The notes beneath the pieces were generated by a model. That model was not told the DNA's origin, did no database searches, and saw only the letters and a program-made list of their open reading frames with translations. 22,420 bases of DNA from a virus. The stretch lies in IMG/VR virus record IMGVR_UViG_3300030419_000859, positions 1-22,420 of that record, one strand, 5' to 3'. Positions 2,530 to 9,021 of this stretch are shown piece after piece (positions within the stretch are counted from its first letter, which is position 1; each line of letters begins with the position of its first letter). The position numbers were made by a program, and so were the translations under genes.

Positions 2530-4098
2530 ATGACAGCAAAGAAAAGGTATGACGCTCTCAGAGGATACCGCACCGAGTATTTAAACAAAGCAGATATAGC
2601 GGCAAGACTAACTCTTCCTTATCTAATTAGAGATGAAGAACAATTCAGAGGAGCAACCCGTGACCTTGATACACCATGGCAGTCAGTAGGTGCCAAAGGT
2701 GTAGTCACCTTAGCTTCGAAACTCATGTTGGCTCTAATGCCAGTGAACACAAGCTTCTTCAAACTACAGATGGATGACTCACAAATTGGTGAGGAGATAC
2801 CACCTGAAGTTAAATCAGAATTAGATTTATCGTTTGCAAAGATTGAACGTACTATCATGGAGGCTATTGCAGCTTCAGATGATAGAGTTACCATACACCA
2901 AGCGCTTAAGCATTTGGTAGTAGCAGGTAATGCTTTAATCTTTATGGACAAGGAAAAGTTAAAGCTTTATCCGTTGAACCGTTTTGTTGTAGATCGAGAT
3001 GGTAGCGGTAATGTCATAGAGATCGTAACCAAAGAAAAAATTGCCAAAAAATTATTGGCAGATGTTATCCCCGATTATTTACCACCAGAAAATTCAGAGG
3101 ATACAGAACGTGAAGACGACTGCGATGTCTTTACCCACATTAAGAGAGATGGTAACAGATTCATCTGGCATCAAGAGGTACATGATAAAATCATACCTAA
3201 CTCTAGAGGTAAGGCACCACTAGATACTAACCCTTGGATTCATCTACGTTTCAACACAGTAGATGGTGAAGCCTACGGGCGGGGTAGAGTAGAAGAATTT
3301 ATTGGAGATCTAAAGAGTCTTGAGGCTTTATCTCAGGCACTAGTAGAAGGATCTGCAGCGGCTGCTAAGGTAGTCTTTGTAGTATCACCATCAAGTACCA
3401 CTAAACCACAGACCCTAGCGTCTGCTGGGAACGGTGCGATAGTCCAGGGACGTCCCGATGATATCGGAGTAGTCCAGGTAGGAAAGACTGCTGACTTTGC
3501 CACGGCATATCAAATGGTCGGACAGTTAGAGAAGAGATTAGCAGAAGCATTCTTAATTCTATCTATTAGACAGAGTGAAAGGACAACTGCGGAAGAAGTT
3601 AGAATGACACAGATGGAACTAGAGCAACAGCTTGGAGGTTTATTCTCCTTACTTACTGTTGACTTCTTGGTACCATATCTAAACAGAAAGTTATCAGTCT
3701 TCCAAAAGACTGGACGTATACCTAAACTACCTAAGGATATAGTGAAGCCTACTATTGTAGCAGGTGTAAATGCTCTAGGACGTGGACAAGATAGAGAAGC
3801 ATTAGGTCAATTCCTGACTATGATTTCTCAAACCATGGGACCAGAAGCAACACAGCAATTCATTAATCCAGAAGAAGTTATCAAACGTCTAGCTGCAGCT
3901 CAAGGTATTGATGTATTAAATCTTGTTAGATCTATGCAAGAGATACAAGATGAACAGCAGCAAGTACAACAACAACAGATGGCACTTGAACAACAGAAGG
4001 TTGACAATAGTGACCCACTGAATGATCCAAGTAAAAACCCACAACTAGCGGAGGAACTAAGTGGACAAGGTGAAACCATCCCGCCCACGGAAGGCTAA
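2530..4098 (+). CDS. Portal protein (head-tail connector, T7 gp8-like)
   Basis: The 522-aa protein is close to the length of T7 gp8 (536 aa). Family-like features include RYDALRGYRTEYLNKA at the N-terminus, the TLPYLI segment, DTPWQSVGAKGVVTLASKLMLALMPVN, and RQSERTTAEEVRMTQMELEQQLGG in the C-terminal half. The C-terminus is a Gln-rich coiled coil (about residues 470-500). The portal forms the dodecameric ring at one capsid vertex through which DNA is packaged and ejected, and to which the tail attaches. It lies directly before the scaffold gene, the standard T7 order. No Shine-Dalgarno is evident before ATG 2530. The distal end overlaps the next GTG-start gene. Confidence 0.95.
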   Translation: MTAKKRYDALRGYRTEYLNKADIAARLTLPYLIRDEEQFRGATRDLDTPWQSVGAKGVVTLASKLMLALMPVNTSFFKLQMDDSQIGEEIPPEVKSELDLSFAKIERTIMEAIAASDDRVTIHQALKHLVVAGNALIFMDKEKLKLYPLNRFVVDRDGSGNVIEIVTKEKIAKKLLADVIPDYLPPENSEDTEREDDCDVFTHIKRDGNRFIWHQEVHDKIIPNSRGKAPLDTNPWIHLRFNTVDGEAYGRGRVEEFIGDLKSLEALSQALVEGSAAAAKVVFVVSPSSTTKPQTLASAGNGAIVQGRPDDIGVVQVGKTADFATAYQMVGQLEKRLAEAFLILSIRQSERTTAEEVRMTQMELEQQLGGLFSLLTVDFLVPYLNRKLSVFQKTGRIPKLPKDIVKPTIVAGVNALGRGQDREALGQFLTMISQTMGPEATQQFINPEEVIKRLAAAQGIDVLNLVRSMQEIQDEQQQVQQQQMALEQQKVDNSDPLNDPSKNPQLAEELSGQGETIPPTEG

Positions 4099-4300
4099 GA
4101 AAGCTACACCAAAAGTCCAACCACCCCTTAGCGCAGATGATAAGGAACTCTTTGAAGAGAAGCCTAATAAATATGCACCTAAGATGAAGGTTGGCAAACC
4201 AACTATTAAAGCACCTGGAACTAAGGTGGTAACAACAGTTGGATTAGGAAACCTTACAGTAGAAACTATCAATGGCAGAAGCGCAGACACTAACGTATGA
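4061..4300 (+). CDS. Small basic protein between portal and scaffold (GTG start)
   Basis: The 79-aa protein begins at GTG 4061, preceded by a strong GGAGG (4050-4054) at good spacing inside the end of the portal gene. It overlaps the portal by 38 nt and the scaffold gene by 29 nt. The N-terminal half is rich in Lys and Pro (DKVKPSRPRKAKKATPKVQP), the middle has a KYAPKMKVGKPTIKAPGTK stretch, and the end is strand-like. It covers the otherwise empty 4099-4271 interval, and the Shine-Dalgarno makes translation likely. I do not recognise the family. The basic, proline-rich composition and position suggest a small head-assembly or DNA-contacting protein, but no function is assigned. Confidence 0.75.
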   Translation: MDKVKPSRPRKAKKATPKVQPPLSADDKELFEEKPNKYAPKMKVGKPTIKAPGTKVVTTVGLGNLTVETINGRSADTNV

Positions 4301-5057
4301 TGCAAACGAGCAGCCAGAAGGTGAGCTTAATGCAGAAGAGAAAGAGGCTCTGGAAGTTGGTGAGAAACTAGCTGAACAACAAGAGACTCTACTTGCTGGT
4401 AAATTTAAAGATGCGGAGGAACTTGAAAAAGGATACATCGAACTCCAAAAAAAGCTTGGCTCTTCGGAGGAGAAAGCTAAAGAGGAAGTTACTGAGACCA
4501 AAGATGAAAAGGTAGAAGAGAAGGAGGAAGAGACAGAGCTTGACACTGCTTTGTTAGAATCTCTTTGGGAAGAAGGTGTCAAAGGTGAGTACACTAAAGA
4601 GACTTTACAGAAACTAGCTGATACAGATTCTAGAGAAATAGCTCAGATGTATCTTAAGTATAGATCTGAGAATCAGAAACAAGAACAAACTTCATTAACT
4701 GAAGAAAATATTACACAGCTTAAAAGTGTTGTAGGTGGTGAAGGAGAGTATGATAAGATGATGAAGTGGGCTGGAGAATCTTTGCAAGAAGATGAAGTGA
4801 AGATGTACGATGCTGTTATGGATAAAGGTGATCCACTAGCAGCATTCTTTGCCGTCCAAGCCCTCACCTATAGGTACAACGATTCTCGTGGAGTAGACGG
4901 ACAAATGTTACAAGGTAAAGCACCCACTGAAAAAGGGGATACTTTTAGGAGTCAAGCCGAAGTTGTCCGAGCTATGTCTGACCCTCGTTATGACCAAGAC
5001 CCTGCCTATCGTCAGGACATCTACGATAAATTAGAAAGATCTAATCTTAAATTCTAA
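4272..5057 (+). CDS. Capsid scaffolding protein (T7 gp9-like)
   Basis: The 261-aa protein is highly charged and Glu/Lys-rich, as expected of a scaffolding protein that guides major capsid protein into a procapsid and then leaves. The N-terminal 60 residues contain LLAGKFKDAEELEKGYIELQKKLG, a pattern typical of cyanopodovirus and related scaffolds. An acidic low-complexity coiled coil follows (residues about 70-100). The C-terminal third (DTFRSQAEVVRAMSDPRYDQDPAYRQDIYDKL) is the probable capsid-binding helix-turn region. It sits after the portal, in the T7 order, but the capsid gene is displaced downstream by the psbA/hli cassette. The stop shares one base with the next start (TAATG). Confidence 0.92.
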   Translation: MAEAQTLTYDANEQPEGELNAEEKEALEVGEKLAEQQETLLAGKFKDAEELEKGYIELQKKLGSSEEKAKEEVTETKDEKVEEKEEETELDTALLESLWEEGVKGEYTKETLQKLADTDSREIAQMYLKYRSENQKQEQTSLTEENITQLKSVVGGEGEYDKMMKWAGESLQEDEVKMYDAVMDKGDPLAAFFAVQALTYRYNDSRGVDGQMLQGKAPTEKGDTFRSQAEVVRAMSDPRYDQDPAYRQDIYDKLERSNLKF

Positions 5058-5155
5058 TGCCACAAGGTAAAGGAACATACGGGTCTCAAAAAGGTAGACC
5101 CCCTAAGAAAGGTACTAAAGGTACTAAGAAAACATCACTTAAAATCAAATACTAA
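5057..5155 (+). CDS. 32-aa basic micropeptide with GRPPKK (AT-hook-like) core
   Basis: A 32-codon frame ([18 protein letters not shown], then a Lys/Thr/Gly tail ending SLKIKY) fits exactly between scaffold and psbA. Its ATG shares an A with the scaffold stop (TAATG at 5055-5059), and its TAA shares an A with the psbA start (TAATG at 5153-5157). Such perfect tiling is hard to explain by chance. The peptide has about ten Lys/Arg and no acidic residues. The GRPPKK segment resembles the Gly-Arg-Pro core of AT-hook DNA-minor-groove binders, although the flanking residues are not canonical. Similar short peptides starting [10 protein letters not shown] occur in other marine phages. No function is known; nucleic-acid binding is inference. 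Confidence 0.7.
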
Positions 5156-6228
5156 TGAGTACAGCCACACTAACTAAACAATCTAATTGGAATAGTTTCT
5201 GCGACTGGGTAACAAGTACTAACAACCGGCTATACGTCGGTTGGTTTGGTATACTCATGATACCATGTCTACTTACAGCAACTACCGCATTTATAATCGC
5301 CTTCATTGGCGCACCTCCCGTCGACATTGACGGTATCAGAGAGCCAGTTTCAGGCTCATTATTATATGGAAACAACATTATATCTGGAGCGATTGTACCA
5401 AGTAGTAACGCTATTGGTCTCCATTTCTACCCGATTTGGGAAGCTGCTACACTGGATGAATGGCTCTACAATGGAGGACCCTATCAACTCATCGTCTTCC
5501 ACTTCCTTATTGGCATCGCAGCTTACATGGGACGCCAATGGGAACTTAGTTATAGATTAGGCGCTAGACCTTGGATTCCAATTGCGTATTCGGCACCAGT
5601 ATCAGCAGCCTTTGCAGTATTCCTCGTATATCCTTTCGGACAAGGAAGCTTCTCTGACGGTATGCCGTTGGGGATATCAGGAACGTTCAACTTTATGTTT
5701 GTCTTTCAGGCAGAACATAATATCCTTATGCATCCTTTCCATATGTTGGGTGTTGCGGGAGTATTTGGTGGAGCTTTGTTCTCTGCTATGCATGGCTCGC
5801 TGGTCACCAGTTCAATCATTAAAGAAACTACCGAAGTAGAGTCTCCTAATTATGGATACAAATTCGGTCAAGAGGAGGAGACGTATAACATCGTCGCGGC
5901 TCATGGTTACTTTGGCAGACTCATATTCCAATATGCTTCTTTCAATAATAGCCGTAGTCTACATTTCTTCCTTGCTGTTTGGCCAGTCGTGGGGATATGG
6001 CTCACCTCTATGGGAGTCAGCACTATGGCATTTAATCTTAACGGCTTTAACTTCAATCAATCCATTCTCGACTCCTCAGGAAGAGTTGTCCCTACCTGGG
6101 CTGACGTCCTGAACAGAGCTAACCTTGGCTTTGAAGTTATGCATGAGAGAAATGCTCACAACTTCCCACTTGATCTAGCTGCTTCTAACAGAACAGAAGT
6201 AGCATTAACTGCACCTTCTATAGGATAA
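5155..6228 (+). CDS. psbA: Photosystem II reaction centre D1 protein
   Basis: This is a full-length 357-aa D1 with five membrane helices. Numbering is two lower than the standard D1. The redox tyrosine Y159 and its partner H188 are present, as are the chlorophyll P680 ligand H196, the iron ligands H213 and H270, and the quinone-pocket S262. The manganese-cluster ligands D168, E187, H330, E331, H335, D340 and the carboxy-terminal A342 are also present. A 15-residue extension after A342 would be removed by the CtpA protease. Residue 128 (standard 130) is Gln, as in low-light D1:1 forms. The protein replaces photodamaged host D1 in thylakoids during infection. The gene has no intron, no own Shine-Dalgarno and a TAATG junction with the upstream micropeptide, so it depends on upstream late transcription. 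Confidence 0.99.
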
Positions 6229-6480: not shown

Positions 6481-6666
6481 ATGACAACTACAACAGAACA
6501 AGGCGGAAGACAAAACAGGTTCCCTAATGAGCCTAGAGTAGAAGTCCTAGACGTTAACTGGGCTGAGAATGCAGAGCGAGTAAATGGCTGGTCAGCAATG
6601 CTGGGCGTCATCGCTGCTATCGGAGCTTATGTAACTACAGGACAATTGATTCCTGGCTTGCTCTAA
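6481..6666 (+). CDS. hli: High-light-inducible protein (HLIP)
   Basis: The 61-aa protein has an N-terminal soluble arm and a single chlorophyll-binding helix with the pattern AENAERVNGWSAMLGVIAAIGAY, followed by TTGQLIPG. Glu32 and Asn35 match the pigment-binding ExxN of the HLIP family. The Arg usual after the Gly (ExxNGR) is replaced by Trp37. The TGQ-I/L-IPG ending is typical of the phage-related, multicopy hli group of marine picocyanobacteria. HLIPs bind chlorophyll and carotenoid in thylakoids and dissipate excess excitation, protecting photosystem II during assembly and stress. The gene is downstream of psbA and just upstream of the riboswitch. No Shine-Dalgarno is evident. Confidence 0.95.
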   Translation: MTTTTEQGGRQNRFPNEPRVEVLDVNWAENAERVNGWSAMLGVIAAIGAYVTTGQLIPGLL

Positions 6667-6675
6667 ACACCACGT

Positions 6676-6736
6676 CCGTTCATCCCAATGGGACGCATGA
6701 CAACCTAGGCATGGAACGGGGTCTAGGTACTTGGAG
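6676..6736 (+). promoter_or_regulatory. Probable glutamine-sensing riboswitch, downstream-peptide type
   Basis: The sequence folds as a three-way junction. P1 is CCGTTC (6676-6681) with GAACGG (6714-6719). P2 is TCCC (6683-6686) with GGGA (6690-6693) around a 3-nt loop. P3 is CATG (6696-6699) with CATG (6710-6713). Its 10-nt loop carries ACCTAG (6703-6708), which can pair with CTAGGT (6723-6728) as a pseudoknot. A Shine-Dalgarno (GGAG, 6733-6736) follows immediately, then ATG 6744. This architecture, the marine cyanophage setting and the short downstream reading frame match the downstream-peptide RNA class, a relative of glnA RNA that binds L-glutamine. If so, ligand would stabilise the pseudoknot beside the ribosome site and alter translation. 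Ligand binding is inferred. Confidence 0.78.
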
Positions 6737-6743
6737 ATTTACT

Positions 6744-6794
6744 ATGACTGTAAAGCTTAAGTATCGTGGTGTACCTTACACTAAAACAAAGTAA
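6744..6794 (+). CDS. 16-aa riboswitch-controlled peptide
   Basis: A 16-codon frame encodes MTVKLKYRGVPYTKTK, with Shine-Dalgarno GGAG at 6733-6736, 7 nt before ATG. The peptide is basic, with an LKYRGVPY core resembling the L-YRG--Y signature of short cyanobacterial DUF4278-type proteins. It directly follows the predicted glutamine-sensing RNA, which is how that RNA class is normally found, ahead of very short reading frames. It ends 6 nt before the next gene, so translation could also influence that gene. Function is unknown. Evidence for translation is the ribosome site plus the upstream RNA; the frame itself is too short to prove coding. Confidence 0.7.
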   Translation: MTVKLKYRGVPYTKTK

Positions 6795-6800
6795 AAACAA

Positions 6801-7169
6801 ATGAAATTAGCACTTGCCGCACTGGCTGCAACAGCACTAGCGACACCTGCATCAGCTGGTGTATATGTAAACGTGGAAGCAAATTCCTCGCTAACAGGAT
6901 CGGATTACACCGGCACTACTACCGACGTTCACGTGGGTTATGAAGGTGGAAACGACACAGCATCATTCTATGTACAAGGTGGTCCAGCCATCGTTGCTGT
7001 AGATGGAGCTGATGAAGGAGACACCAGAATCTCTGGTAAATTCGGTGGTTCCATAGCTGCTACCTCTAAGGTAGACGTTTATGGTGAAGTAGCTGTACTA
7101 ACAGCTGACTCAGATACAGATGATGACAACGCTTGGGCTACCAAGGTTGGTCTGAAATATACCTTCTGA
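6801..7169 (+). CDS. Secreted outer-membrane beta-barrel-like protein
   Basis: The 122-aa protein starts with a classic signal peptide (MKLALAALAATALATPASA, predicted cleavage after residue 19 at ASA). The mature part is Gly/Thr/Asp-rich with alternating strand-like segments (VYVNVEAN, DVHVGYEG, ASFYVQGGPAIVAV, VDVYGEVAVLT) and ends VGLKYTF. A terminal aromatic Phe is the recognition signal of the outer-membrane assembly machinery. Small proteins of this sort recur in marine cyanophages, but their role is not established. Remodelling the host outer membrane or excluding superinfecting phage are possibilities. It follows the riboswitch peptide by 6 nt and has no obvious Shine-Dalgarno, so the riboswitch might affect it too. 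Confidence 0.82.
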   Translation: MKLALAALAATALATPASAGVYVNVEANSSLTGSDYTGTTTDVHVGYEGGNDTASFYVQGGPAIVAVDGADEGDTRISGKFGGSIAATSKVDVYGEVAVLTADSDTDDDNAWATKVGLKYTF

Positions 7170-7849: not shown

Positions 7850-8007
7850 GCTTAGGGTGGGGAGCACCTCAGAGTCGGACTCCCCTCTCATTGGCATTAA
7901 GCCCGTACGCGGATACCTTTTTGCCGTCTAGACGGTGGGATAGACCACAAATTTTTTTAATTTCAATCGATTGAGAGACTTGTAACATATACACTACTCT
8001 CTAAGTA
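7850..8007 (+). promoter_or_regulatory. Structured 158-nt leader of the major capsid gene, with a possible weak terminator
   Basis: This is the longest gene-free stretch. It contains four elements. GGGGAG (7859-7864) pairs with CTCCCC (7880-7885) around a 15-nt loop. A 12-nt palindrome CCGTCTAGACGG lies at 7924-7935. GTGG (7935-7938) pairs with CCAC (7945-7948) and is followed by seven T (7952-7958), giving a weak intrinsic-terminator shape. GAGAG (7973-7977) pairs with CTCTC (7997-8001) just before the start codon. GTCTA in the palindrome could alternatively pair with TAGAC at 7941-7945. A late promoter is expected here by analogy with T7 phi10, but I cannot identify its sequence. Confidence 0.5.
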
Positions 8008-9021
8008 ATGGCTAATTCAATAGTTTCCAGTATTGGTACCATTAATAATACCAGTCAGACCCCGCTCTCACTAGGTACTGCTTATGATACCAAGTACGCA
8101 ACTTACTTGAAGCTGTTCTCAGGCGAACTTTTCAAAGCCTATGAGTCAGCTACAATTGCAAAAGGAACTGTACAAAACCGTCAACTAAAGAACGGTAAGA
8201 GTCTACAGTTCATCTTCACAGGTCGCATGACCGCCGCTTATCATACTCCAGGTGAACCAATCCTCGGATCTGGTGATCCTCCAGTAGCAGAGAAGACTAT
8301 CGTCTGCGACGACCTTCTCATAAGCTCAGCGTTTGTATACGATCTCGATGAAACACTTGCTCATTATTCCCTTAGATCAGAGATCTCCAAGAAGATTGGA
8401 CACGCTCTAGCTGAGGCATATGACAAGAAGGTATTCCGTACCATCGCACTAGCAGCTCGCGAAGCTCATCCTATCACAGCATCACCAGGTCCAGAGCCAG
8501 GTGGTTCTATCATTAAGATTGGAGCTAACAATGAGTATGATGCTCAGCGTTTGGTCGATGCATTCTTCGAAGCAGCAAGTATCCTAGATGAGAAGAACCT
8601 ACCTAAGACTGGTAGAACTGCAGTACTATCTCCAAGACAGTACTACGCTCTAGTATCTCAGGTTGATTCGAACATCTTAAACCGTGACTACGGTAACACA
8701 CAAGGTAACTTGAACTCAGGTGATGGACTAGTATCTATTGCTGGTATCAACATCCAACGTTCTAACAACCTACCTTTCAAAGCTGGTACAGTTAATGCTC
8801 AGGCTGGTGAGAACAATGCCTACAATGGTGACTTCTCTCAGCACGCTGGTCTTATCTACCAGAAGGACGCAGCTGGCGTTGTTGAAGCAATTGGTCCTCA
8901 GGTTCAAACAACCGGTGCCGATGTTAAGACAATGTATCAGGGTGATCTAATTGTCGGTCGTCTAGCAATGGGCGTCGGTACTCTTAACCCTGCTGCTGCT
9001 ATTGAAATTCAAACTGCTTGA
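8008..9021 (+). CDS. Major capsid protein (T7 gp10-like)
   Basis: The 337-aa protein is close to T7 gp10A (345 aa) and has the HK97-like capsid layout. The N-terminal segment includes YLKLFSGELFKAYESATI, the extended-loop region includes RQLKNGKSLQFIFTGRMTAAYHTPGE, and the spine-helix region includes SEISKKIGHALAEAYDKKVFRTIALAAR. The axial domain has GRTAVLSPRQYYALV and GINIQRSNNLPF. It polymerises into the icosahedral head on the scaffold. Nine of its ten Phe codons are TTC, consistent with translational selection in a very highly expressed gene. There is no Shine-Dalgarno; a small hairpin lies just before the ATG. It is followed by two small genes and a strong terminator, as in T7 after gene 10. 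Confidence 0.96.
   Translation: MANSIVSSIGTINNTSQTPLSLGTAYDTKYATYLKLFSGELFKAYESATIAKGTVQNRQLKNGKSLQFIFTGRMTAAYHTPGEPILGSGDPPVAEKTIVCDDLLISSAFVYDLDETLAHYSLRSEISKKIGHALAEAYDKKVFRTIALAAREAHPITASPGPEPGGSIIKIGANNEYDAQRLVDAFFEAASILDEKNLPKTGRTAVLSPRQYYALVSQVDSNILNRDYGNTQGNLNSGDGLVSIAGINIQRSNNLPFKAGTVNAQAGENNAYNGDFSQHAGLIYQKDAAGVVEAIGPQVQTTGADVKTMYQGDLIVGRLAMGVGTLNPAAAIEIQTA

Follow-up and report, generated by a model that had tools for sequence, protein, structure and literature searches.

The window, as we call the whole 22,420-base stretch of virus DNA analysed here, has the gene order of a T7-like cyanophage and carries an RNA which, judged by its sequence, is a member of the Glutamine-II class on every feature examined, with glutamine binding and switching predicted. 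We give a probability of roughly 70% to the reading that this phage Glutamine-II (type 2) riboswitch controls how a minimal relative, with one repeat only, of the glutamine-controlled DUF4278 peptides of the host is translated. By analogy with the host systems, glutamine most probably switches this translation on, and the product would mimic a nitrogen-response peptide of the host. Should this hold, a lytic phage would read the nitrogen state of its host in real time, with RNA alone, and answer with a peptide of 16 residues. It would also offer a small testable handle on the function of the DUF4278/YRG proteins in marine picocyanobacteria, because the phage has cut these proteins to one motif. 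New in this analysis are a pairing of the phage leader, here called P0, with the ribosome binding site (RBS) or the YRG codons, and a swap of the base pair C19:G41 in some relatives. A literature search found no description of the podovirus unit with a one-repeat YRG peptide, of P0 or of the swapped-pair subclass, which is weak evidence as subscription papers were mostly outside its scope.

The aptamer and its fold

When the whole window was scanned with Rfam, Glutamine-II (RF01704) was the single match reaching the gathering cut-off. It covers 6674-6727 on the plus strand at full length (model positions 1-60 of 60), with a score of 51.1 bits, where the cut-off is 33, and an E-value of 6.5e-10; Glutamine-I (RF01739) gave no match in the window at its cut-off. 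An earlier note on this DNA, made from the sequence alone, had placed an RNA of the downstream-peptide/glnA class here and proposed a covariance-model search, and the match found lies far over the cut-off. What the note had observed is partly confirmed, in that the RNA is real and its topology has to be corrected, and its interpretation, a glutamine-class RNA controlling a short peptide, is supported.

The anatomy was numbered on the crystal structure of the Prochlorococcus riboswitch, in which the ligand glutamine stabilises the PK helix and for which release of the RBS has been proposed (PMC6698751). Mapped in this way, the fold is a pseudoknot with three stacked helices (Table 1). The PK, P1 and P2 helices and the long-range pairs C19:G41 and A33:G42 were all found in the window copy, and the ligand-site bases C1, G2, G18, C19, C39, G40 and G41 are all kept. 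A near-identical ligand site is present in Glutamine-I (RF01739), which differs from the window RNA in being a three-way junction without a pseudoknot (PMC6698751).

Table 1. Features of the unit and of its surroundings, in positions of the window.
Feature	Position	Strand	Basis or remark
Head-tail connector	2530-4098		
Capsid assembly	4272-5057		
psbA	5155-6228		
Upstream ORF, 61 aa, possibly hli-like	6481-6666	+	stop TAA 6664-6666, 10 nt before C1
P0 5' strand ACACCACG	6667-6674	+	8/8 pairs with YRGV codons 6765-6772; cognate versus permuted energies
Glutamine-II riboswitch aptamer (RF01704)	6674-6727	+	covariance-model score, covariation
PK helix 5' strand, crystal C1-C5	6677-6681	+	pairs with 6714-6718; crystal mapping; invariant in 19-homologue alignment
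P1 hairpin (UCCC AAU GGGA)	6683-6693	+	Rfam match, complementarity, alignment
Linking strand C17 G18 C19	6694-6696	+	C19 pairs with G41 (6719), G18 in base triple; Rfam match and crystal
P2 5' strand ACCUAGGC	6703-6710	+	7/8 pairs changed on both sides
PK 3' strand G36-G40 (6714-6718), with G41 (6719) and G42 (6720)	6714-6720	+	Rfam match and crystal
P2 3' strand GUCUAGGU	6721-6728	+	covariation
Predicted hairpin, Shine-Dalgarno in stem, AUG in loop	6729-6762	+	-6.2 kcal/mol
Shine-Dalgarno GGAG	6733-6736	+	4 nt after last P2 base (6728)
16-codon ORF MTVKLKYRGVPYTKTK	6744-6794	+	single YRGxxY motif; minimal DUF4278-like repeat
P0 3' strand CGUGGUGU	6765-6772	+	inside Arg-Gly-Val codons
Cyanophage outer-membrane-like protein	6801-7169		
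Major capsid protein	8008-9021		further ORFs between it and the outer-membrane-like protein

The complementary segments drawn in the earlier note (6676-6681/6714-6719, 6683-6686/6690-6693 and 6703-6708/6723-6728) are all present in the sequence, but the topology drawn from them was another one. The helix called P1 there does pair at 6677-6681/6714-6718, but it is the PK helix, and 6676 is not paired with 6719, since G6719 is crystal G41 and has C6696 (C19) as its partner. The supposed loop-to-tail pseudoknot is a real and covarying helix, but it is the P2 of the Glutamine-II fold and longer than drawn, 6703-6710/6721-6728, closed by the pair of A6711 (A33) and G6720 (G42). The three-way junction falls, and the pseudoknot takes its place. 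The third helix of the junction, P3 (CAUG 6696-6699/CAUG 6710-6713), occupies C19 and the A33-G35 region, and we rejected it as part of the functional fold: it clashes with the crystal pairs C19:G41 and A33:G42, and relatives that have AGGGAACGG (L081, L083, L099) cannot form it intact. The 5' half of P3 is missing from host copies, and P3 can form only in nested alternative folds. It survives only as a possible alternative fold of the ligand-free RNA, as the folding models would allow.

The alignment of 19 phage homologues showed 98.1% of the cells of the Glutamine-II structure to be paired; changes on both sides were counted in 8 pairs and 32 cells, and none of 500 shuffles reached any of the structure measures, while controls slid out of register were 26-61% paired. 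The covariation score was 0.317 as compared to 0.089 in the shuffles (0/500 as high). Covariation was seen in 7 of the 8 pairs of P2, which in a set of 68 sequences paired to 86% in register and to 30-54% when slid. The PK helix is invariant among the 19 homologues, partly by construction at the loci found by pattern, and because of this it is uninformative on covariation either way; the invariance of P3 in the same alignment is equally uninformative. Covariation among related phages, which the earlier note had named as a check on its helices, is thus strong for P2 and leaves P3 unsupported. The minimum free energy of the aptamer standing alone is ordinary (z -0.42), which is to be expected because the folding program cannot see pseudoknots.

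The short frame and its host relatives

Downstream of the aptamer, the Shine-Dalgarno and the 16-codon frame were found as described earlier, and so was the gap of 4 nt between the 3' strand of a helix and the Shine-Dalgarno, the helix being P2. This short distance, together with a tight linkage, backs the claim that the RNA controls a short peptide. In an independent set of 118 pattern matches, a YRG ORF followed 106 of the 108 aptamer matches that had enough downstream DNA, and the two matches lacking one were GC-rich, non-homologous chance hits, hence the linkage is 106/106 for homologous aptamers. The hairpin predicted around the Shine-Dalgarno and the AUG (z -1.77, with 15 of 200 shuffles equally good) is suggestive only.

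The phage ORFs come in two shapes. Some, including MTVKLKYRGVPYTKTK of the window, have 13-22 residues and contain little beyond one LxYRGxxYxK-like motif, others, of about 32-42 residues, have a polar N-terminal stretch ahead of the motif, and in S-RIP2 the YRG frame extends to 79 residues. Among 54 distinct phage sequences, which were preselected for the motif [YF][RK][GSR]xx[YF] and are therefore informative only in their synonymous pattern and exact residues, both the Y and the R are invariant, the G is kept in 53, synonymous codon changes are common and the dN/dS of the YRG core is 0.23. This pattern indicates that the phage YRG motif is under purifying selection. A Pfam scan for DUF4278 (PF14105) concerned the longer phage versions, the 16-aa peptide of the window being under the length limit of the scan; three of them matched at 14-22 bits (maximum 21.6), below the cut-off of 25.3, and two others gave no match. 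The longer phage peptides are found in PHROGs in families of unknown function only, chiefly phrog_5049, and a host DUF4278 protein of 55 aa used as query against phages found no relative.

The family RF01704 was above cut-off in 77 of 121 genomes of the host family. The proteins encoded at the 30 top host loci have 33-58 residues and carry two or three YR motifs, and two of these proteins match DUF4278 at 33 and 41 bits; it is on these grounds that the phage peptide is seen to resemble a small host protein reduced to one repeat, the host protein being itself under a glutamine riboswitch. The host riboswitch of marine Prochlorococcus and Synechococcus has the same aptamer sequence, the same PK/P1/P2 fold, the same ligand-site bases and the same kind of small DUF4278-type ORF downstream. 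The phage copies differ from it in their shorter linker, CGCAUG as compared to CGCAGUUCGA, in having one peptide motif instead of two or three, in the pairing of the P0 5' strand with the RBS or the YRG codons, and in what lies upstream of the aptamer: a GTAN8TAC box was found in 2 of 163 phage copies and in 30 of the 30 top-scoring host copies. In these host loci (L150-L179) the box, which is the NtcA consensus, is placed 18-20 nt upstream of the aptamer.

Type 2 glutamine riboswitches turn on DUF4278 genes with glutamine (PMC6316151), and small host proteins such as the Yfr6 peptide, PMM1846 and the N-terminus of IF17 have both the LxYRGxxY motif and the glutamine-riboswitch control in common with the phage peptide (PMC6316151). 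The single repeat of the phages is most like the last repeat of the host DUF4278 proteins. A model of the 55-aa host protein, of low overall confidence (pLDDT 73.5, pTM 0.24), has three β-hairpins, one per motif. In an earlier study of phage infection in Prochlorococcus, antisense RNAs rose early, both against the Yfr6 unit of the host and against a gene similar to the Yfr6 peptide (PMC2518516), therefore this family of small proteins may matter in infection.

Glutamine riboswitches are known from other marine phages, namely Melnitz, Mosig, AG-345-P14 and T4-like cyanophages (PMC9004378, PMC9602691), and their presence in some phages is noted also in PMC9964418. The riboswitch of Melnitz differs in being glnA-RNA-like and located with ssrA. 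A strict pattern for the host-type riboswitch found nothing in viral contigs, and a looser one gave 119 matches there, mostly chance, of which 6 precede a YRG-like frame; one of the 6, L397, is a GC-rich chance match, and several have a box like GTAN8TAC upstream and may derive from cells. In four contigs of the viral collection (L312, L332, L361, L386) a YRG-type frame is preceded by a linker of the host type and, further upstream, by a GTAN8TAC-like box, and these contigs may stem from cells or from another type of phage.

Distribution in phages and gene context

Similar DNA occupies the corresponding position in P-SSP7, P-SSP2, P-SSP10, NATL1A-7, NATL2A-133, P-GSP1, S-RIP2, S-TIP37, S-CBP1 and uncultured relatives. 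The peptide ORF is often unannotated there, and in many of the isolate genomes examined, for instance that of the model phage P-SSP7, the unit as such carries no annotation. All 44 first-round records had RF01704 above cut-off, one copy each, as had most marine cyanopodovirus isolates and 28 of 50 capsid-anchored contigs, several of the others being truncated by a contig end. Of the isolates chosen by their capsid, S-TIP28, SS120-1, S28-C3, S-RIP1 and S-CBP4 have the riboswitch, and it was not found in Syn5, P60, S-CBP2, S-CBP42, S-B28 and the lake or reservoir phages DSL-LC07 and S-SRP01. The YRG ORF is present in all the riboswitch-bearing isolates and in none of these seven, where it was searched for within 1.7 kb upstream of the capsid gene. 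Three contigs from bacterial assemblies hold the unit, assigned to a Porticoccaceae MAG (L046), a Prochlorococcus single cell (L050) and an Actinomycetota MAG (L053); L050 and L053 are cyanophage DNA, judging by the psbA and the T7-like capsid genes that they contain as well.

The usual place of the unit in T7-like cyanophages is between psbA and the capsid gene. Two small ORFs separate psbA from the riboswitch in the window, and the 61-aa ORF directly upstream matched no Pfam family above its cut-off. Its distance to C1 is also the typical one: an open frame lies upstream in 152 of 163 phage units, and in these the median distance from stop to C1 is 10 nt. The earlier note had seen the unit as lying inside a photosynthesis cassette. 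It is true that psbA is nearby in the window, but this is incidental: in S-TIP28, SS120-1 and S28-C3 the stretch from head assembly to capsid has no annotated psbA, and yet these phages keep the unit, which is therefore part of the pre-capsid locus and not of psbA. A regulation tied to psbA is ruled out by the same relatives.

It is conceivable, though unlikely, that the riboswitch mainly controls the downstream outer-membrane-like protein or the capsid, via coupling or transcript stability, and that the peptide is merely a leader ORF. Short leader ORFs are able to couple to downstream genes, and the unit lies directly ahead of the capsid gene in most relatives, but in the window and in the NATL1A-7 group it is separated from that gene by 2-4 genes, over about 1.2 kb. 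Moreover, the amino acids of the ORF are conserved, as its dN/dS tells, and they match the host proteins encoded behind this riboswitch in cellular genomes.

Directly upstream of the capsid gene we observed another conserved and probably structured stretch, non-coding, at 7860-7960 of the window, L147:3770-3870 and L138:3820-3920. It reads GCCGGUACGCCGA... GACGGUGGGAUAGACCACAAA in relatives, and the window copy had no Rfam match at cut-off.

The helix 5' of the aptamer and the proposed mechanism

In folds of whole phage leaders, the 8-10 bases that separate the aptamer from the stop codon upstream were seen to pair with the YRG codons or with the RBS. This helix, P0, is kept with other bases in other phages, AUGCCACG/CGUGGCAU in L063, AAUACCGCG/CGCGGUAUU in L073 and AACGCUACG/CGUGGCGUU in P-SSP7. 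The mean energy of the cognate pairing was -10.0 as compared to -8.15 (sd 0.31) for permuted flanks in 42 phages, a z of about -6, and -10.47 as compared to -8.37 (sd 0.24, z -8.6) for 78 flanks unseen in the first set. Because permutations leave some relatedness effects, we also give the figure over 43 sequence clusters, where the mean z against shuffled flanks was -1.16 (se 0.24, p 2e-5) and 44% of the clusters had a z below -1.5. Host copies showed no such pairing signal (P 0.29). By these comparisons P0 is a covarying, phage-specific helix between the 5' flank of the aptamer and the RBS or the YRG codons, with good support in about half of the lineages and a putative one in the rest. It is energetically weak in some, the S45-C4-like and S-TIP37-like phages, in which other local pairings may replace it.

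The riboswitch of S-CBP3 (CGTTCATCTCTTCGGAGACGGG...GGCTGGAACGCG) scores 16 bits only, under the Rfam cut-off, and its C19:G41 reads G:C on the crystal numbering. Besides S-CBP3 (L138:3692-3760), this swap before a YRG ORF was seen in L434, L449, L450, L451, L459, L463, L475, L510, L512, L515 and L526, further contigs found by pattern search. The 5' flank pairs with the region ahead of the start codon in 11 distinct swapped-pair contigs, at an energy of -11.6 as compared to -6.6 when permuted (P 5e-5), and several of the pairings are unrelated to each other (GAUUAACGA/UCGUUAAUC, AGUAAGCU/AGCUUACU, AUACCGUA/UACGGUAU, AACUCCAUA/UAUGGAGUU). This is the clearest sign that the strand serves as an anti-ribosome-binding-site element. 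The subclass possibly has a changed ligand, and it is a natural test of the role of C19:G41 in the choice of ligand.

The mechanism we propose is as follows. L-glutamine would bind in the PK helix and stabilise it, as work on relatives suggests. When glutamine is lacking, P0 and the Shine-Dalgarno hairpin would hold the start region closed; when it is bound, the stack of PK and P2 would form and draw the 5' strand off, and the start region would open. The peptide would then be made at plentiful glutamine. Such an opening is easy to picture in the swapped-pair subclass, as its P0 often lies right against C1 and the RBS. In the lineage of the window, P0 pairs with codons 7-10, away from the Shine-Dalgarno, and because it pairs there the route of the opening is not obvious; single-strand folding gave the Shine-Dalgarno as 0.25 unpaired whether the PK strands were freed or not. 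Ribosomes terminating at the upstream ORF, with its stop typically 10 nt before C1, could also disturb P0. The peptide is probably one β-hairpin, and it probably acts on, or competes for, a partner of the multi-repeat proteins of the host. A more far-reaching scenario, which we offer as speculation and hold to be rather doubtful, is that T7-like cyanophages took a glutamine-controlled YRG gene from the host and cut it to one repeat, that an RNA strand closing the RBS replaced the NtcA-like box on the promoter side, that the product, gated by glutamine, inhibits or mimics a nitrogen-response protein of the host, and that the sister G19:C41 subclass senses a different metabolite.

The direction of the switch is not revealed by the sequence, and with P2 only 4 nt from the Shine-Dalgarno a stabilised P2 could also block ribosomes. 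That glutamine reduces the synthesis of the peptide, or works on transcription, is nevertheless quite unlikely, since a tested Prochlorococcus type 2 riboswitch raised expression (review PMC6316151) and the covarying pairing to the RBS region fits a ligand-free OFF state. The swap of C19:G41 in a related subclass could make one think of a remnant aptamer without glutamine binding, or of one for another ligand, but we consider this very improbable for the window copy, which keeps its ligand-site bases. Although the 3' strand of P0 overlaps the Arg-Gly-Val codons in many phages, there is hardly any chance that these codons are conserved as a helix strand around a functionless peptide, since the motif is invariant also in hosts, where P0 is absent, and in phages with P0 pairing to the RBS instead, and since the second Tyr and the Lys, outside P0, are conserved while synonymous changes are common.

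The glutamine-on translational switch is thus the reading that we prefer for the window, and the aptamer itself varies among related phages. In L040 and L119, which are S-CBP1-like, the P1 hairpin is larger by tens of bases, with complementary stretches inside it. In S-SBP1 (L147:3433-3640) an annotated ORF of 54 aa, gp32, splits the two halves of the aptamer. This ORF has its ATG within the P1 stem (UCUAUG/CAUAGA), on the 5' strand, and ends with a stop inside the linker GCAUGA, which places a gene inside the hairpin loop of the riboswitch.
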